Shown in pieces: positions 2,980 through 23,802 of a stretch of 32,385 nucleotides of DNA; within the stretch, counting starts at the first letter, position 1, and each line of letters opens with the position of its first letter. The stretch comes from Clostridia bacterium. GTDB taxonomy: Bacteria; Bacillota_A; Clostridia; Oscillospirales; CAG-272. The notes beneath the pieces were generated by a model. That model made no database searches. It was not told the DNA's origin and was given only the letters and a program-made list of their open reading frames with translations. The stretch lies in the NCBI GenBank assembly GCA_017414585.1, contig JAFQLN010000213.1, forward strand, positions 1 through 32,385. Reading direction: 5' to 3'. A program made the translations under genes and the position numbers.

Positions 2980-3996
2980 TTATTTTTTTGCCGCACGCGC
3001 CATGGCGAGGATATTTTCCACCGGCACATTCGGCAGAATCCGTTCGTGGCTGGGCGAGATGACAATCGACGGACCCAGAATCGAGCGAACACGGTCCACT
3101 TCGCGTTCGATTTCTTCCGGTGTCGCATTGACAAAGAAGGACTGTGCGTCGATGCCGCCGACAAACGCGAGATCATTCTTGTACTGCTTCAGATCGTCCG
3201 CGCTCATGCCGACTGCCTGTGCCTGAATCGGGTGCAGTGCGTCAACGCCCGCGTCAATGAGATCGGGAATGATCCGGTAAATCGAGCCGCAGGAGTGCAG
3301 AAGAATCTTCTTATTGTACTTTTTGCCGACTGCAATGATCTTCTTGAATCCCGGCATAACAAATCTGCGGAACATTTCGGGGGAAATGAACAGATCCAGC
3401 TGCGTGCCGAAGTCGTTGCCGAAAAACATAACGTCCGCGCGGTCACCGAGTCCGGAAAAGAACTTTTCGTTCGCCTGTACGTAGAAGTCCACAACGTGCT
3501 CCGTTACCGCTTCGACGACTGCGGGATTTTCGTACATCTTGATAAAGTAGTTTTCCATACCGAAAAAGTCCGCGACGATGTGGAAAAAGCAGCTCCACAT
3601 ACCGGTGAACACCATTTTGTCCCGAAACTGTTCGATATAGCTGTAAACGTGGTCAAAATTGCAGTATTTCGCATCCGGCCACGGATAGGCTTCGACTTCT
3701 GCCGTGTCTTCCGTATCGGCAAAGCATCCGCCTGCTGAAAGGGTTGTGCGCGCCTTGCTTTTGTAGGCAACGTCAAACATCGGACGTCCTTCGGGATGGC
3801 GGTAGCCTCCGTCCGCACTGATCCAGCGGCAGTCGTCATCAAGATAGCGGAAGAACGTCTCCGGATTGTCTTCAAATCCCCATTTCTGTGCGCCTTCTGT
3901 GATCAGACAGCGGTCGGGATTGCCCGTCCACATCACGCCGTCCCCGGCACTGCGGTGCTCAAATACCTCAAGCACTTTTTCTCTGGATGTTTTCAT
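2980..3996 (-). CDS. Uroporphyrinogen decarboxylase superfamily protein 1
   Basis: A 338-residue TIM-barrel protein of the URO-D superfamily. It is recognised by SPEMFRRFVMPGFKKII (205-221), the HSCGSI segment at 234-239, the GGIDAQSFF strand (280-288) and the C-terminal LPNVPVENIL. The HxC pair (H234, C236) matches the zinc ligands of MtaA/CmuA-type corrinoid methyltransferases, but their usual third Cys near the C-terminus is not apparent: the region reads VISPSHERILP. A role in methyl transfer or another small-molecule reaction is therefore more likely than heme synthesis, but is unproven. It lies 23 bp after a second URO-D-like gene and is surely cotranscribed with it. ATG preceded by AAGGAG. 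No heme-pathway gene or corrinoid protein is in the window. Confidence 0.85.
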   Translation of the reverse strand: MKTSREKVLEVFEHRSAGDGVMWTGNPDRCLITEGAQKWGFEDNPETFFRYLDDDCRWISADGGYRHPEGRPMFDVAYKSKARTTLSAGGCFADTEDTAEVEAYPWPDAKYCNFDHVYSYIEQFRDKMVFTGMWSCFFHIVADFFGMENYFIKMYENPAVVEAVTEHVVDFYVQANEKFFSGLGDRADVMFFGNDFGTQLDLFISPEMFRRFVMPGFKKIIAVGKKYNKKILLHSCGSIYRIIPDLIDAGVDALHPIQAQAVGMSADDLKQYKNDLAFVGGIDAQSFFVNATPEEIEREVDRVRSILGPSIVISPSHERILPNVPVENILAMARAAKK

Positions 3997-4019
3997 AGTC
4001 AGTACTCCTTATGGACAAT

Positions 4020-5150
4020 TTATTTCCTGTTGAAATCCCGTACCGCGCGGCACATGGCTTCCACATTTTCTTCCTTTGTGTAGTAGAACATATAGTCGGA
4101 TGCCCCAAGGATATGTTTTCTGCCCATCCGCTTTGCCGTCTCGAGGATATGCCGGGATTTTTCGTAAATCTCTTCCGGTGTATCATTGAGCAGCGCATCC
4201 AATCCGATATTCCCGCGGGTACAGATGTTTTCGTCGAGCTTGGAGAATGCGTCTTCCATGCTTTTTACGTTGCCTACCGGATAACCGGACAAGGTTTCAA
4301 ACAGGTCGATACCCATCCGGTTATAGTACCCCATCGTCAGCATCGGCTCAATCGGCGAACAGATATGGGAATAGATAAGCAGTCCTTCTTTGTGCGCCAT
4401 GTCGGAGATCTGCTTTGAATACGGCACAAGGAAGTTTTCGTAATACTGCGGAGAAATCATTTCCGAACCGGGACCACCGAGGAAGACGAAATCCGCTCCG
4501 CCCGCCGCGACCGCTTTGAGCAGTTTTTCGTCAAGCGCGAGGATTTTGTCCATCAGCCGATAAAAACGGCGGTCTTCCAGCGTGGATGCAAAAATAGCTG
4601 TATCCTGCGTGCTCGGAAATCCCATGAGTTCATACGGCTGCATCGCCCACTGAATATCCATAGGATCGTCCTCGCCGATAACACTGCGGCACCACTTCAC
4701 ACCTTCGGTAACTTTCGAAAAATCTTTTACTTCCAGCAGACGGTCGAGGTAGTATTCGAATACATCCAGGTCTTCTTCTTCCCTGACATAAAACTCCACA
4801 GGACACACACCCATGTATTCTTCCTCGAGCGCCTTTGATGTCAGCGCTCCGACCGGTGTGTGAAAGACACTCGAATACGTCCGCCGTTTTCCGTTTGCTG
4901 ACACTTCTGTTTTTCCGGTAACCGTCACTTCATCGGTCAGCTGGGTGAGATCGCAAAGTCCCATGTTGTACAGCGGTGACATATCAAAGCGGCGGCAGGC
5001 TGCCCTCGTATCCTCCAGAGATGTTTCACTCATCCAAGTTTTCCCTGCCAGACGGGTATCAAATCCGGCGCCTGCACCGATCTGGGGGGAACAAAGAAAT
5101 TGTTTGCCGCCGTACCGTACATAGTTTTTATAGATTTCGCGGTTGGTCAT
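4020..5150 (-). CDS. Uroporphyrinogen decarboxylase superfamily protein 2
   Basis: A 376-residue URO-D-superfamily protein and first gene of the pair. The start is placed at MTNREIYKNY because AGGGAGG lies just upstream and the promoter at 5191-5219 would fall inside any longer reading. Family marks are GADFVFLGGPGSEMISPQYY (218-237), the Y-S-H262-I-C264 segment with an HxC pair where zinc-dependent relatives have theirs, and LDENICTRGNIGLDALLNDT with the TPEEIYEKSRHIL helix. As in its partner, a third Cys ligand is not evident near the C-terminus (GASDYMFYYTKEEN). The two proteins are clearly diverged, which argues for two activities or a heteromer rather than a fresh duplication. Substrate unknown; probably cytoplasmic. 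Confidence 0.83.
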   Translation of the reverse strand: MTNREIYKNYVRYGGKQFLCSPQIGAGAGFDTRLAGKTWMSETSLEDTRAACRRFDMSPLYNMGLCDLTQLTDEVTVTGKTEVSANGKRRTYSSVFHTPVGALTSKALEEEYMGVCPVEFYVREEEDLDVFEYYLDRLLEVKDFSKVTEGVKWCRSVIGEDDPMDIQWAMQPYELMGFPSTQDTAIFASTLEDRRFYRLMDKILALDEKLLKAVAAGGADFVFLGGPGSEMISPQYYENFLVPYSKQISDMAHKEGLLIYSHICSPIEPMLTMGYYNRMGIDLFETLSGYPVGNVKSMEDAFSKLDENICTRGNIGLDALLNDTPEEIYEKSRHILETAKRMGRKHILGASDYMFYYTKEENVEAMCRAVRDFNRK

Positions 5151-5190
5151 GGTCAGCCTCCCTTGCGCACAAATCTGTGTTATTTTTTTC

Positions 5191-5219
5191 ATTGTACAGG
5201 ATTGCGGCAGTTTTGTCAA
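5191..5219 (-). promoter_or_regulatory. Sigma-A promoter of the URO-D pair
   Basis: Minus strand: consensus TTGACA (-35, 5214-5219), 17 bp, TACAAT (-10, 5191-5196). The leader to the ATG at 5150 is about 35 nt. Confidence 0.88.
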
Positions 5220-5249
5220 TTCCATCTGCAAATTTCGATTCTGCCGGAA

Positions 5250-5281
5250 TGAAAAATCCTCCGGAAGAGATTTCCTCCGGA
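5250..5281 (-). terminator. Intrinsic terminator of the DUF362 operon
   Basis: On the minus strand TCCGGAGGA pairs with TCTTCCGGA (9 bp with one G-T pair, 4-nt loop; arms in 5260-5281), followed by GGATTTTT. It lies about 45 nt after the DUF362 stop and before the promoter of the URO-D pair. Confidence 0.75.
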
Positions 5282-5325
5282 AGATTTCGGACTGTATTGC
5301 TTTGTTCAGAGTGAGGCTGTACCCA

Positions 5326-6195
5326 TCAGTCAACTGTGACAAGTTCGTATTCTCTCGACCCGCAGCCCAGTGCCGCAGCCGCTTCGACCGTCAGCACACC
5401 GTTGCGGGATTCGATTCTTTCCAGCAGATGCTTCTGTCCGGGATCGTCCGTCGCGGCATACACAAGGTCGAGACACGCCTGGTCAATCGCAACGGGATCA
5501 AGCGACGCGAGAATGCCGATATCCGCCATGCACGGGTCTTCCGCAACCGCACAGCAGTCGCAGTCCACGGACATATTCTTCATGACATTGACATACACAA
5601 TTCTTCCGCCGAAAAATGCAGTCACGGAAAGCGCTGCGTCCGCCATCGAACGGAGGAAGGAATCATGATCCGCCGTCCAGATTTTTTCCGGTTCGCCCGC
5701 GCCGTGGATGTATGCCTTGCCGAACGAGGATGCCGCACCGATGGAAAGCTGCTTGAGTGCGCCGCCGTATCCGCCCATCGGGTGTCCCTTGAAGTGGGAC
5801 AGCACGAGCATGGAATCGTAGTTTTTCATATTTTTGCCGACATAATTCTTCTGAATCTGTCTGCCTTCCGGAATGGCAAGCTCAAGATCAGGTCCTTCGG
5901 CGTCGAGGATATCGACCGGGAAGAGATCGCTCCAGCCGTGCACCTTCATGGTTTCGATGTGCTTTTCCGTGGTGTTGCGCCTGCCTTCATAAGCGGTATT
6001 GCATTCGACAACGGTACCGCCGACTTTGTCAATCACCGGTTTCCAGAAATCGGGTTTCAGAAAATTCTGGTTGCCGACCTCACCGGAGTGCACCTTGACA
6101 GCTACTTTTCCGGGCAGTTCTGCGCCGAGCAGATCATAGAGTTCGAGCACCTTTTCGGGGGTAATGGTTTTCGAGAAATATACCTTCGGTTTCAT
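5326..6195 (-). CDS. DUF362 domain-containing protein
   Basis: A 289-residue DUF362 protein. Characteristic stretches are KVAVKVHSGEVGNQNFLKP (30-48), VVECNTAYEGRRNT, the SHFKGHPMGGYGGALKQLSIG block with its conserved glycines, and LASLDPVAIDQACLDLVY near the C-terminus. A Cys cluster (VDCDCC, then EDPCMADIG) sits where many DUF362 proteins carry or precede a 4Fe-4S ferredoxin domain, but no full ferredoxin domain is present, so metal binding is possible only through these cysteines. Biochemical role unknown. Probably last gene of an operon with the SGNH hydrolase and DUF4317 gene upstream (gap 71 bp; AGGAGG before the ATG) and followed by a terminator. Confidence 0.85.
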   Translation of the reverse strand: MKPKVYFSKTITPEKVLELYDLLGAELPGKVAVKVHSGEVGNQNFLKPDFWKPVIDKVGGTVVECNTAYEGRRNTTEKHIETMKVHGWSDLFPVDILDAEGPDLELAIPEGRQIQKNYVGKNMKNYDSMLVLSHFKGHPMGGYGGALKQLSIGAASSFGKAYIHGAGEPEKIWTADHDSFLRSMADAALSVTAFFGGRIVYVNVMKNMSVDCDCCAVAEDPCMADIGILASLDPVAIDQACLDLVYAATDDPGQKHLLERIESRNGVLTVEAAAALGCGSREYELVTVD

Positions 6196-8212: not shown

Positions 8213-9157
8213 TCAGCCGAGGCATTCTTCCAGTGCATCCAGTACAGCCGCCGTATTGTCCTCGGAGTATTCGATCTCCGCCGAGTAAAGCCGCGCCGTT
8301 TCGATCAGTTCGGCAAGGGATGCTTCTCCGTTCTTCCGGCATTCGCCCTCCCATATCGACCGGATCACGGCATAGCTGAGGACAGCAAACGCAAGCCGTG
8401 CATCGAGATCGAGAACATCCGCCGCGTCAGCCAGATGCCGGTTCACAAAGTACACGAGCAGCTGTTCCCACACGGTTTCTCCTTCAGCCGGTGCTTGGAG
8501 GAGACATTCTGCGTTCTCCGCGTTCAGGTATGCGAGTCTGTCATCCCACGCGGTCTCCATCCGTTCCAGTCCGTTATAGAATTCGCGCCACTGTTCCGGC
8601 GTGCGTCCGTACCAGACATCATCCGTCAGCCGGAAGATGCGTTCTGCCAGCGGCTCGGCGCGGTTCTGGAGGACTGCGAGAATGTTTTCCCGTTCGGCGA
8701 ACACCGCTTCCTCCCACGCCGAAGACGTTTCGTCCGCGTCATCCTCCTCCCACAGAATCCACCGGGTCACGGATTGTTTTTTCAGAAGCAGTTCCCCGAC
8801 CGCTTCGCATGCCAGCCCGAGTCCCATCTCCCGTCGTGCACAGAGTTCGTTATAAAAACGCGGATGATCCGTGCAGATCTGCGACAGATGCTCCTTGCCG
8901 CAGCGGATATAAATATCGCACAGTCCCGCGCTGTTGAGAAACGGACAGCGTTCGTTTTCGCAGAGCCGGAAATGCGCGCCATCTTCATCCTCGTCAATCG
9001 AATCGTGCAGATGTGCGCCGAATTCCCCGCTGACCGACCGGTAATATGCCAGCGTATCCGCGTCAATGCCGATTTCCCAGCCGATACAGCAGCTTTTGCG
9101 GCACGCGCCCGCCTTGCAGTGAAACTGCGGATAATAGTCCGGGACAAAAGTTTTCAT
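8213..9157 (-). CDS. FliB-like (flagellin lysine-N-methylase family) Cys-rich protein
   Basis: A 314-residue protein with the N-terminal cluster HCKAGACRKSCCIGWEI (C14, C19, C23, C24) and a second run of cysteines (C66, C71, C80, C86, C95, C106) around CPFLNSAGLC and ICTDHPRFY. This is the signature of proteins annotated flagellin lysine-N-methylase (FliB) and related metal-binding YkgJ-type domains. The clusters suggest an Fe-S or zinc site, in line with radical-type chemistry proposed for FliB. No flagellar gene is in the window, and many non-motile Clostridia carry this family, so flagellin need not be the substrate. ATG preceded by GGAGG. Unusually, a terminator-like hairpin and U-tract end only a few bases before this ribosome site. 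Confidence 0.8.
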   Translation of the reverse strand: MKTFVPDYYPQFHCKAGACRKSCCIGWEIGIDADTLAYYRSVSGEFGAHLHDSIDEDEDGAHFRLCENERCPFLNSAGLCDIYIRCGKEHLSQICTDHPRFYNELCARREMGLGLACEAVGELLLKKQSVTRWILWEEDDADETSSAWEEAVFAERENILAVLQNRAEPLAERIFRLTDDVWYGRTPEQWREFYNGLERMETAWDDRLAYLNAENAECLLQAPAEGETVWEQLLVYFVNRHLADAADVLDLDARLAFAVLSYAVIRSIWEGECRKNGEASLAELIETARLYSAEIEYSEDNTAAVLDALEECLG

Positions 9158-19904: not shown

Positions 19905-22160
19905 TTGGCTGATCACAGAAGCAAAAACAAACGCGAAAAATCCATCCGCCGCGCGATGGGTAAATATAAATCGGACCGTAAAAACGCGCACGGCTCACAG
20001 CGGAAGAATTCCCGTTCCTCCCGCAGTCAGCCGCCGACCTACGAATCCATGAAAAATCCCGCTGTCCGTTATCCGGAACAGATCGAAGGCACGTTCTCCT
20101 ACAGCGGACGCGGCTTCGGCTTCTGCATCCCCGATCCGGCATACGGCATGGCGGACGTCTTCATCCCGCCGCGCAAAACCATGGGCGCCATGACGGGGGA
20201 CCGCGTGACCGTCGAGCTGTACCCGCGCGAACACAGCCGGGACGCTGACCGCACTTTTGAGGGAGAAGTCACCTCCGTCGAATACAGCACCGACACGATC
20301 ATCGGCACGCTCCATACCGGGCAGGGATATTCCTATGTCCTTCCGGATGCCAAACGGTTCGGCGTGATCATCTATGTCCCCGAAAAGGATGTGGATGTTT
20401 CGGGTGCGAAGGACAACGACAAGGTGGAAGTCGTCCCGCCCGGGGAGGAATTCTTTACCCGCACCAAATCCATCACGGTCCGCGGTCCGCGTGATATGCC
20501 CTATTTCGATACAGCCGGACGGATCAGCACCGTTTTCGGCAGCAGTCTCTCCCGCGATGCGAATTATTCCGCCATTCTTTACGCCTCCGGCATCCGCACC
20601 GAATTCCCGGAATCCGTTCTGCGCCATGCCGACGGGGTATCGAAAGAACCGATTTCCGCCGAAAACCGAACGGATCTGCGCGGGAAGCTGATCATGACCA
20701 TCGACGGTGCGGGCGCGAAGGACCTTGACGACGCCGTGTCCCTCGAACGCACGGAAGACGGGTACCTGCTCGGCGTGCACATCGCGGATGTCTCGCACTA
20801 TGTCCGGCAGAAAACTCCCACGGAGGAAGAAGCGGCTGTGCGCGGAACGAGCGTCTACTTCACGGACAAGGTTGTGCCGATGCTCCCCGAAGCACTTTCC
20901 AACGACGCCTGCTCCCTCAACGCCGGGACGGACAAGTACGCCCTTTCAGCAGAAATCACCCTTGACAAAAACGGTCAGCGGACAGGCACACGGATTTTCA
21001 AGTCCATCCTGCGTTCCTCTGTCCGCGGCGTTTATTCGGAGGTCAACGATCTCTTTGCACAAGGCGAAAGCAGTGCGTACTACGAAAAATACCGCGAAGT
21101 ATACCCCATGCTCACCGATATGTATGCGCTGTACGAAATTCTCCAGAAAAACAGCGAAGCGCGCGGCGTCATGGAGCTGGAAGACGCAGAAGCCGTAATC
21201 GTTCTCGATGAAAACGGCAATCCTGCCGATATTGTCCGCAGAGAACGCGGGGACGGTGAAAAACTGATCGAGCAGTTCATGCTGCAGGCAAACATGGGTG
21301 TGGCACAAACGCTGAACGAGCTGCACCTGCCCTGTCTCTACCGCATTCACGAACAGCCTGACCGGGAAAAAATCCGCGCGTTCGCCGTATTCGCACACAA
21401 TGTCGGGCTGGACACACGCGGACTGACCGGGGACGATCTTGCAGCCATGCCCGCGCACACACTGTCCGACCGGCTGATGGCAGTACTCCGTGAAGCGGAA
21501 GAACGCGGCATCGGTGCGATTGTCTCGTCCGTCCTTCTGCGCAGCATGATGAAAGCAAAGTATGTTCCGCAGTGCCTGCCGCATTTCGGTCTGGGCGCGG
21601 AAGAATACTGCCACTTCACCTCGCCGATCCGCCGCTATCCCGACCTGTTCGTGCATACCGTCATTACGGAAACACTGGAAAAAACGGGACTGCGCGAACT
21701 GACTGCGGGCACGCCGTTTGACGAAGATCCCGTCCCGCACCTCACGCGCATAGCCGATGACCGCGGGGTTTCGTCCACAGACTGCGAAATCCGCGCGATG
21801 AATGCCGAACGCGAAATCGAAGACCTGTACATGGCGCTCTACATGGCGGACAGAATCGGAGAGGAATTCGATGTGACCGTCTCTTCCGTCACCCGCAGCG
21901 GTATGTTCGTGCAGTGCGAAAACCTCATCGAAGGCTTTGTCCCCGCCGCCTGCTGGCCCGCATCGAAAATCAATGAAGAACTGATGACGCTGACTGCGGG
22001 CACGACCGTTTACACCCTCGGCTCCCCCCTGCGCGTGCGTCTCTCTGACGTGGACATCTCCGGCGGAAAAATCACCTTTGAGCCCGTCCGTGCCCATCCT
22101 TCGTCAGCGGGCGAAAAGAACGGCAATACTGCGGAAAATGTCGTGTCTGCGACGATTTAA
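19905..22160 (+). CDS. rnr: Ribonuclease R
   Basis: RNase R, a processive 3'-5' exoribonuclease that degrades structured RNA. The 751-residue protein starts with a basic low-complexity tail (1-45), then cold-shock/OB domains (about 58-180, with EGTFSYSGRGFGF and YSYVLPDAKRFG). The RNB catalytic domain follows with IDGAGAKDLDDAVSL (266-280, Mg-binding aspartates), GVHIADVSHYV and HFTSPIRRYPDL. A C-terminal S1 domain (about 665-735) contains TVSSVTRSGMFVQ. The start is a TTG at 19905 with AAGGAG six bases upstream; an ATG 17 codons later is possible but lacks such a site. The common rnr partner smpB does not follow; a short ORF and a MATE gene do. Confidence 0.95.
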   Translation: MADHRSKNKREKSIRRAMGKYKSDRKNAHGSQRKNSRSSRSQPPTYESMKNPAVRYPEQIEGTFSYSGRGFGFCIPDPAYGMADVFIPPRKTMGAMTGDRVTVELYPREHSRDADRTFEGEVTSVEYSTDTIIGTLHTGQGYSYVLPDAKRFGVIIYVPEKDVDVSGAKDNDKVEVVPPGEEFFTRTKSITVRGPRDMPYFDTAGRISTVFGSSLSRDANYSAILYASGIRTEFPESVLRHADGVSKEPISAENRTDLRGKLIMTIDGAGAKDLDDAVSLERTEDGYLLGVHIADVSHYVRQKTPTEEEAAVRGTSVYFTDKVVPMLPEALSNDACSLNAGTDKYALSAEITLDKNGQRTGTRIFKSILRSSVRGVYSEVNDLFAQGESSAYYEKYREVYPMLTDMYALYEILQKNSEARGVMELEDAEAVIVLDENGNPADIVRRERGDGEKLIEQFMLQANMGVAQTLNELHLPCLYRIHEQPDREKIRAFAVFAHNVGLDTRGLTGDDLAAMPAHTLSDRLMAVLREAEERGIGAIVSSVLLRSMMKAKYVPQCLPHFGLGAEEYCHFTSPIRRYPDLFVHTVITETLEKTGLRELTAGTPFDEDPVPHLTRIADDRGVSSTDCEIRAMNAEREIEDLYMALYMADRIGEEFDVTVSSVTRSGMFVQCENLIEGFVPAACWPASKINEELMTLTAGTTVYTLGSPLRVRLSDVDISGGKITFEPVRAHPSSAGEKNGNTAENVVSATI

Positions 22161-22194
22161 TCGAAAAGTTTTTGCATAATCTTTTGTTTAATTA

Positions 22195-22223
22195 TTGACA
22201 AACTGTTAATATTGTGCTAAAAT
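22195..22223 (+). promoter_or_regulatory. Consensus promoter of the small ORF/MATE unit
   Basis: TTGACA (-35, 22195-22200), 17 bp, TAAAAT (-10, 22218-22223): one of the best promoters in the window. It is the only promoter seen between rnr and the MATE gene. Confidence 0.9.
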
Positions 22224-22238
22224 ATGATTACAATCATA
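22223..22238. promoter_or_regulatory. Palindrome across the start site of the small ORF/MATE unit
   Basis: Perfect inverted repeat TATGATT-AC-AATCATA running from the last base of the -10 box through the expected +1. It is a good candidate operator. The same 7-mers form the core of the terminator stem at 22422-22475 (AATCATACC and GGTATGATT). Confidence 0.5.
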
Positions 22239-22257
22239 AGAAAAGGAGCAGGTCAGC

Positions 22258-22365
22258 ATGATTTTCCCTTTTGCAGAACCGCAGACATTTGAAATTCTCG
22301 CTCTCGCCGCCGTGGTTGTCATCACTGCGCTTGCTCTGATGTTCCACGCACACACGAAGCGATAA
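22258..22365 (+). CDS. 35-residue single-span membrane peptide / possible leader peptide
   Basis: A short ORF of 35 codons (MIFPFAEPQTFEILAL...). It has AAGGAG 9 nt before the ATG and a consensus promoter about 35-60 bp upstream. The peptide has one hydrophobic segment (about 11-29, LALAAVVVITALALMF) and a basic end (HAHTKR), which predicts N-out/C-in orientation. It is not a family I recognise. Two hairpins, the second a strong terminator, and a MATE efflux gene lacking its own promoter follow directly. It may therefore be an independent small membrane protein, a partner of the pump, or a regulatory leader peptide. Coding is supported by position and translation signals only. Confidence 0.6.
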   Translation: MIFPFAEPQTFEILALAAVVVITALALMFHAHTKR

Positions 22366-22396
22366 CGAAAATTCACACATCCGAATACAGACAGCA

Positions 22397-22418
22397 CTCT
22401 CTGCCGCCGGGTAGAGAG
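22397..22418 (+). promoter_or_regulatory. Leader hairpin upstream of the terminator in front of MATE
   Basis: CTCTCTGCC pairs with GGGTAGAGAG (9 pairs, one G-T) around a 4-nt loop, 31 nt after the small ORF stop and 3 nt before the terminator. Its TGCC could instead pair with the GGCA that opens the terminator stem, so it may take part in alternative folding. No known riboswitch class was recognised. Confidence 0.55.
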
Positions 22419-22421
22419 AAA

Positions 22422-22475
22422 GGCATCGAAATCATACCGTCAGGCTTTCAAAGGTATGATTCCGGTGCCTTTTTT
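22422..22475 (+). terminator. Strong terminator/attenuator upstream of MATE
   Basis: A 17-position stem (GGCATCGAAATCATACC with GGTATGATTCCGGTGCC; one G-T and one A-C mismatch), 14-nt loop, then TTTTTT at 22470-22475. It ends 49 nt before the MATE ATG. It either ends the small-ORF transcript or works as an attenuator for MATE. Confidence 0.9.
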
Positions 22476-22524
22476 GGAGAATCCATCCGTTTTCGCGGCG
22501 GGATCTGTCTCACGAGGAGGTTCT

Positions 22525-23796
22525 ATGCTTACAAAAACTTTTTTCCGCTATGTCTCCCAGAGTACCGCCGGAATGCTGGGACTGTCCTGCTACATCCTTG
22601 CTGACACCTTCTTTATTGCACGCGGCATCGGCGAAACGGGGCTGACCGCACTCAATCTTGCCATTCCCGTCTTCAGTCTGATCACCGGCGCGGGGCTTAT
22701 GGCGGGCATCGGCGGCGCAACCCTGTACACACTCCGTCGGGAAAAGCGGATTTTCACCGATGCGCTCTTGTTCACCCTCGCTGTGTCCGTTCTCTTTTTC
22801 CTCTGCGGCGTGTTTCTGAGCGAAGAGGCGGCGTATCTTCTCGGAGCAGATGCAGTCACGCTTGCCGACACCGCTGTTTATCTGCGCACCATTCTGCTCT
22901 TTTCGCCGTTCTTCCTTCTCAACAACCTGCTCTCCGCTTTTGTACGCAGTGACGATGCGCCCAGACTCGCCATGACCGCACAGCTTGCCGGCAGTTTTTC
23001 AAACATCCTGCTCGACTATCTGTTCATTTATCCGCTCGGATGGGGAATGGCGGGTGCGGCTTTTGCGACCTGTCTTGCGCCGATCATCAGTCTCGGCATT
23101 CTGTCCGCGCATTTTCTGCAGAAGAAAAACACGTTCACGCTTGTGAAAACGACGCCGTACATCAAAAATACCGCGCGCATCTGTTCCCTCGGTCTGTCCT
23201 CACTGATTACGGAATTTTCGTCCGCGATTGTGATCATCGTTTTCAATCTGCTTCTGCTGTCCCTTTCCGGCAACACAGCGGTTGCGGCATACGGCATCAT
23301 CGCCAATCTTGCGCTCGTCGTCACGTCCGTTTTCACCGGCATTGCGCAGGGAGTACAGCCGCTCATCAGCACAAGCCGGCGGGAACAGGACAGCGGCGCA
23401 ATCCGGCATCTGTTCCGCCTCGGTCTGCTGCTGAGTATTGCCCTCGGCACGGTCATTTTTCTTGCGGCTTTCTTCTTCACTTCCCCCATCATATCTGTCT
23501 TCAACCGGGAAAACTCCGCCGCGCTTGCCGAACTGGCTTCGGAGGGAATCCGGATTTACTTCCTGTCCGCACCGTTTTCGGGCATCAGTATTCTCACCGC
23601 TGCCGTTTTGTCAGCCGCTGACCGTCCGGGATTTTCTCTGATTCTGTCGTCCGTACGGTCCTATCTGCTTCTGCTCCCCGCTGTTTTCCTGCTCGCGCAC
23701 TGCTTCGGCATCACCGGTGTGTGGGCGGCGATTCCCGTGACGGAAGGACTCTGCACGGTTCTGGCGGGCTGCTTCATCAAAAAAATGATACGATAA
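22525..23796 (+). CDS. MATE family efflux transporter
   Basis: A 423-residue multidrug/toxin-extrusion type transporter with about 12 hydrophobic segments in two halves. Typical motifs are VSQSTAGMLGLSCYILADTFF (split across 10-30), GLTALNLAIPVFSLITGAGLMAGIGG in helix 2, and, in the second half, AAYGIIANLALVVTSVFTGIAQGVQPLIS. These pumps exchange Na+ or H+ for cationic drugs and metabolites across the membrane. The start is the ATG with GAGGAGG four bases upstream; a longer reading would begin inside the terminator. No promoter is visible between that terminator (ending 22475) and the ATG, so expression probably depends on read-through from 22195-22223. Confidence 0.9.
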   Translation: MLTKTFFRYVSQSTAGMLGLSCYILADTFFIARGIGETGLTALNLAIPVFSLITGAGLMAGIGGATLYTLRREKRIFTDALLFTLAVSVLFFLCGVFLSEEAAYLLGADAVTLADTAVYLRTILLFSPFFLLNNLLSAFVRSDDAPRLAMTAQLAGSFSNILLDYLFIYPLGWGMAGAAFATCLAPIISLGILSAHFLQKKNTFTLVKTTPYIKNTARICSLGLSSLITEFSSAIVIIVFNLLLLSLSGNTAVAAYGIIANLALVVTSVFTGIAQGVQPLISTSRREQDSGAIRHLFRLGLLLSIALGTVIFLAAFFFTSPIISVFNRENSAALAELASEGIRIYFLSAPFSGISILTAAVLSAADRPGFSLILSSVRSYLLLLPAVFLLAHCFGITGVWAAIPVTEGLCTVLAGCFIKKMIR

Positions 23797-23802
23797 TACA
23801 AA

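Follow-up and report, generated by a model that had tools for sequence, protein, structure and literature searches.

The stretch of DNA analysed here (the window) comprises 32,385 nucleotides (nt) of a Clostridia bacterium assembly, contig JAFQLN010000213.1. Within it, a gene for a MATE-family efflux transporter lies behind a long leader that contains a sigma-70-type promoter, a 35-codon open reading frame (ORF) and two adjacent hairpins, P1 and P2, the second of which is, by its form, an intrinsic terminator (Table 1). The comparisons described below indicate that this leader probably holds a riboswitch of the guanidine-IV class (GGAM-1/mepA motif), working as a ligand-induced ON switch.

Table 1. 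Features of the MATE leader and gene, numbered along the window.
Feature	Position	Strand	Basis or remark
Sigma-70-type promoter, TTGACA-17-TAAAAT, extended -10 (TG before the -10)	22195..22223	+	11 of 12 consensus bases
35-codon ORF with one hydrophobic stretch; AAGGAG at 22243	22258..22365	+	no relative but itself
P1 hairpin, 9 pairs, tetraloop GCCG (22406-22409)	22397..22418	+	fold and covariation
Pseudoknot, loop-1 side, GCC (3-bp kissing)	22406..22408	+	columns 13/106 covary
P2 hairpin, intrinsic terminator by form, with T run	22419..22475	+	fold and covariation
Conserved loop 2 of P2, 14 nt, GTCAGGCTTTCAAA	22439..22452	+	aligned copies
Pseudoknot, loop-2 side, GGC	22443..22445	+	aligned copies
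Loop-2 position 8, T (C in 99 of 99 other copies)	22446	+	column 107
Loop-2 position 12, A (G in 97 of 97 other copies with a base aligned)	22450	+	column 111
MATE-family efflux transporter, 423 aa	22525..23796	+	PF01554, E 3.8e-28

An earlier, sequence-only reading of this locus had proposed an attenuation system built from a consensus promoter, a small ORF with a ribosome site, a 9-bp hairpin and a terminator, and all of these parts were recovered. The terminator stem, put at 17 positions in that reading, has 19 pairs interrupted by one A.C mismatch (22419-22438 with 22453-22472), and its run of six T residues occupies 22470-22475. The segment 22394-22480 folds at -42.6 kcal/mol (z -5.9), a stability equalled in none of 200 shuffles. 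P2 was absent from a simple terminator scan because the scan accepts only loops of 3-8 nt. The MATE start codon, with GAGGAGG at 22514, lies 49 nt beyond the T run, and the promoter-site scan returned no promoter-like site in that interval (22476-22524); full-length MATE mRNA must, as claimed, traverse the terminator. Across 3 kb the same scan found five promoter-like sites, compared with a mean of 1.3 (standard deviation 1.1) in shuffles.

To see how the arrangement is distributed, we used the MATE protein as query against genomes of one related family. In 196 genomes it retrieved 8 loci at E <= 1e-75, and in 295 genomes 13 loci at E <= 1e-90 (the earlier 8 and 5 more), with 43-50% identity. 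All 13 loci, chosen by protein alone, carry the element upstream: a hairpin with loop RCCG is followed by a second one, terminator-like, whose 13-14-nt loop reads RTYAGGYC..G(A/C)A, the same two-hairpin arrangement as in the window. Conservation ahead of MATE homologues, the absence of which had been named beforehand as counting against regulation at this terminator, was thus found throughout this set. From the end of the element to the first ATG of the MATE frame the distance is 3-98 nt in 11 of the 13 and 285-287 nt in the other two (L020 and L377). Among database proteins, the two closest to the window's MATE apart from itself share 59 and 58% identity with it (P0002 and P0003). A contig search with the MATE protein retrieved only two relatives, at 27% identity (L001 and L002), and no element match was present at these distant loci; the homologue count covers MATE genes above the cut-offs together with these two.

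The element extends well beyond MATE genes. We built a model from nine copies, the window among them, a selection that favours typical loops; at E <= 0.01 it matched 17 of 199 genomes in a phylum sample and 86 of 196 in the family sample, and below E 1e-6 it matched 11 and 80, respectively. One hundred copies, including the window, were aligned. Left out were matches above E 1e-7, loci L018-L025 (the same places as L045-L049, L052, L063 and L073), family matches G670, G866, G893 and G917, and L043 (E 2.3e-8), which has the canonical loop-2 C and G. The canonical bases are also present in L044, and loop 2 is missing from L037-L042, L128, L130-L134, L618 and a second match in L066. One weak element (L129, 28 bits), which has no ORF immediately behind it (the one picked starts 588 nt downstream), has a degenerate loop 2 without the conserved G and is possibly a decaying copy.

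Both stems and the 3-bp pseudoknot covary over the 100 aligned copies, in keeping with the covariation that the sequence-only reading had looked to for support. With the pseudoknot included in the structure, 95.6% of cells are paired, compared with 76.1% after shuffling and 31-41% with slid partners, and 23 of the 26 pairs have changes on both sides. The covariation score is 0.599; shuffles give 0.214, and slid partners no more than 0.079. In the P1 helix (columns 8-12 with 17-21) 99.0% of cells are paired and both-side changes occur in all five pairs. The loops of P1 and P2 are both conserved and can pair with each other: 99.3% of pseudoknot cells are paired, and columns 13/106 are A-U in 85 copies, G-C in 14 and G-U in 1. 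The alignment was fitted to the stems of the model, which favours those stems; the pseudoknot is absent from the model, yet it covaries.

Next to these structural features, the genes behind the copies point in one direction. Taking as downstream gene the longest ORF (80 codons or more) whose start lies no further than 700 nt away, we obtained one for 99 of 101 matches: 71 fell in a PnuC-like cluster, 14 were MATE (window included), 2 were of the SMR type and 12 fell elsewhere. When one representative per cluster was compared with NCBIfam, the PnuC cluster matched TIGR01528 above its cut-off, the MATE cluster matched MATE, and SugE was the best family for the SMR cluster, below its cut-off. Genes for SugE, PnuC and MATE are all named for the guanidine-IV class (PMC7736828); the window precedes a MATE gene, and related copies precede PnuC-like, MATE and SugE-like genes.

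In the parts of the published descriptions covered here, guanidine-IV RNAs consist, like the window, of two hairpins joined by a kissing pseudoknot, the 3' hairpin being a terminator with a U run (PMC7736828, PMC11611296), and the pseudoknot and conserved G and U positions match the window by spacing. The A-U/G-C pseudoknot pair of the aligned copies corresponds to the A29-U72 kissing pair of Clostridium botulinum, in which the double change A29G+U72C restored kissing (PMC11611296). The window departs from the class in having T for C at 22446, A for the conserved G at 22450, and a long leader with a small ORF. Because architecture, pseudoknot, terminator and downstream genes all agree with the class, we take guanidine-IV as the most probable class of the element. 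Rfam 15 covariance models gave no match at gathering score in the window and nine loci, and ranking by E-value returned nothing relevant on window positions 22150-22530 or L023 positions 1290-1420. The weak E-value matches were mostly to eukaryotic small RNAs, alongside a plastid element and, on the opposite strand, a phenylalanine leader, and all scored far below the gathering thresholds.

In experiments on the class reported in the same papers, more transcription continues beyond the terminator when guanidine is present, and the authors propose that guanidine-stabilised loop kissing hinders completion of the terminator stem (PMC7736828, PMC11611296). By analogy, P2 in the window would close fully in the absence of ligand and transcription would stop at about 22475. 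When guanidine or a close relative is bound, loop 1 would kiss loop 2 and strain the linker, so that the base of P2 could not form and RNA polymerase would read into the MATE gene, whose product may export the inducer. The T at 22446 and the A at 22450 would represent a compensated swap of a C-G pair within loop 2, and the small upstream ORF a lineage-specific extra. The sequence-only reading had suggested that the pump is induced either when a ligand alters the RNA fold or when ribosomes stall on the leader ORF; the former fits these observations, whereas the latter is unsupported.

Loop 2 is where the window differs from its relatives. It is the sole copy of 100 with neither the C at position 8 (C8) nor the G at position 12 (G12). 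The position-12 column has two gaps, in copies with hairpin insertions (L119 and L126), each with a G beside the gap. We equate 22450 with G72 of Lactococcus lactis and G77 of C. botulinum because the G of the aligned copies stands five bases after the pseudoknot U, as it does in both of these RNAs (U67-G72, U72-G77), a mapping by spacing, made from the papers' text. In the L. lactis RNA, G72C is reported to have abolished guanidine binding and induction (PMC7736828), and in the C. botulinum RNA G77C hindered kissing (PMC11611296). L. lactis G72 is given as 97% conserved (PMC7736828), and G12 is therefore not an absolute feature of the class.

The spacing between C8 and G12 varies among copies (2, 3, 5, 19 or 26 nt), and both bases are kept, which supports a C8-G12 base pair inside loop 2, one that would have been swapped as a unit to U-A in the window. 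As the double change keeps a Watson-Crick pair, the RNA may still sense guanidine or may have acquired another ligand: the swap could be silent, or it could alter the pocket as has been suggested for base D1 of the Gd4v variant. Among the matches listed (122 loci), a search for the U-A form gave two with a possible P2 stem (L630 and L657), neither of which has the loop-1 CCRCC, and the form did not turn up in listings of papers on guanidine-IV, Gd4v, the mepA motif and related terms or in the passages of the cited papers covered here.

The strongest competing explanation is that the riboswitch keeps the architecture and has a ligand other than guanidine, the C-to-U change and the loss of the critical G having altered the pocket; the compound exported by the MATE pump would then be a different one, perhaps guanidine-like. 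Gd4v offers a precedent. It shares the architecture, it too precedes MATE genes, and its authors think that its ligand is not guanidine (PMC9788692). In the sections of that paper covered here, the D1 base of sugE-linked guanidine-IV RNAs is G without exception, whereas G never occurs there in transaminase-linked Gd4v RNAs; D1 most likely equals our position 12, an equation taken from the text, and the window has A there. That the window stands alone among the copies at C8 and G12 also favours a changed ligand. However, the extra hairpin of Gd4v (D2), compared here by text only, is absent from the 14-nt loop 2 of the window, the retained Watson-Crick pair argues for a conserved structure, and canonical bases are present at all 13 related MATE genes. 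We regard a change of ligand as unlikely, though well ahead of the other alternatives. A more specific version, in which the window represents a third flavour of the guanidine-IV fold, with U-A for the loop-2 C-G, no Gd4v hairpin and a different ligand exported by MATE, is likewise doubtful.

Hairpins resembling D2 do occur in other copies. The two PnuC-linked copies with a hairpin inserted in loop 2 (L119 and L126) keep the canonical G. In the guanidine-IV-like elements of three viral contigs from IMG/VR (L152, L168 and L230, of which L168 repeats L152), the C and G of loop 2 stand 21 nt apart, and most of the intervening sequence is a hairpin. In L152 the element follows a 310-aa ORF that by eye resembles a phage structural gene, and inspection from the element to the contig end showed no transporter gene. 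A stem filter over 478 viral loci of the matches listed left 12 distinct viral sequences; at least six copies were judged real (L144, L151, L152, L224, L230 and L614), each of which has C8 and the G. The others (L169, L334, L439, L473, L584 and L587) were set aside by eye as chance, and so were L206 and L346 from another screen with the filter. Because D2-like hairpins coexist with the canonical G, the D1 and D2 marks appear separable, provided that D1 is mapped rightly.

Leader-peptide attenuation, one of the two mechanisms offered by the sequence-only reading, would have ribosomes stall on the 35-codon ORF and so free an antiterminator. The resistance transporter bmrCD of Bacillus subtilis is reportedly controlled in this way through bmrB, and the window resembles that system in having a small ORF and a terminator before a drug transporter. 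Dinucleotide shuffling of the leader produced a comparable ORF (ATG start, 35 codons or more, Shine-Dalgarno-like site) in 23 of 2000 trials, so the ORF between promoter and terminator is somewhat above chance and only mildly improbable. The window differs from that system, however: no relative of the ORF and no antiterminator pairing beyond chance were found. A protein search with its product retrieved only itself (its prediction on six contigs of the protein database does speak for a real ORF), and tblastn against the collected loci gave nothing else below E 0.9. Pairing between the upstream leader and the terminator is no better than in shuffled leaders (delta -7.0, against a mean of -6.6 with standard deviation 2.7), 117 of 300 of which pair with the terminator region at least as strongly.

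The leaders of relatives also bear on the ORF. Only five of 18 MATE-linked relatives (L030, L034, L045, L046 and L376) have a Shine-Dalgarno ORF of 20 codons or more within the 250 nt preceding the element, and in these it starts upstream of the best promoter-like site; the other 13 have none. In the window the stop codon lies 31 nt before P1, and the conserved loops can be explained without a peptide. We set leader-peptide attenuation aside as very improbable; the ORF is probably not part of the switch and may encode a lineage-specific small membrane protein. Equally improbable is a decaying riboswitch that has lost ligand binding and left a constitutive or partial terminator, as might be supposed from two transitions at otherwise invariant bases. 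The two changes compensate each other, the T run, both stems, the pseudoknot and the remaining loop bases are all undamaged, and at 74.9 bits the window ranks fifth of the 100 copies, albeit as one of the nine sequences on which the model was trained.

Several observations weigh against a guanidine-IV riboswitch in the window. At 22450 it has A in place of the G at which substitution by C abolished guanidine binding and induction in the L. lactis RNA, and just one double change, that of the window itself in one assembled sequence, underlies the C8-G12 pair. The window's best promoter-like site ends 170 nt ahead of the element; among the 18 MATE-linked relatives this distance is 14-25 nt in 8 and 7, 71, 76, 104, 130, 184 or 211 nt in others, with no site found in three. 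The distribution is also patchy: in the genus of G965, which holds the closest MATE found, one of seven genomes has a strong match, and a further match is weak and without loop 2 (L618).

Elsewhere in the window, two genes on the minus strand (2980-5342) resemble corrinoid:coenzyme M methyltransferases of the MtaA/MtbA type, below family cut-offs, and a third (8213-9157, minus strand) encodes a homologue of the flagellin lysine-N-methylase FliB, above its cut-off; no further flagellar family turned up in a scan of 20 window proteins. Of the RNase Y relatives, the few with a name are labelled Ruminococcaceae, Oscillospiraceae, Eubacteriales or Clostridia, in line with a place of the window in the clostridia. 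The leader had no counterpart in phage or plasmid records; when plasmids were searched with 19905-23800, the one match, 74 bases long, lay within the RNase R gene.

With the assignment to guanidine-IV, a loosely defined attenuator becomes a sensor that can be tested against a specific candidate ligand, and the MATE pump gains a candidate substrate. The class, undetected by the Rfam 15 scans, is moreover common in one sampled clostridial family, in which 80 of 196 genomes have a match below E 1e-6. The window is a natural double change at a base reported to be essential for guanidine binding. If its U-A version binds guanidine, the G would probably be structural, paired with C8, and not a ligand contact; if it does not, the window would represent a new specificity variant. 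Were the window indeed a third flavour of the fold, the D1 and D2 marks would be separable steps of a change in specificity.
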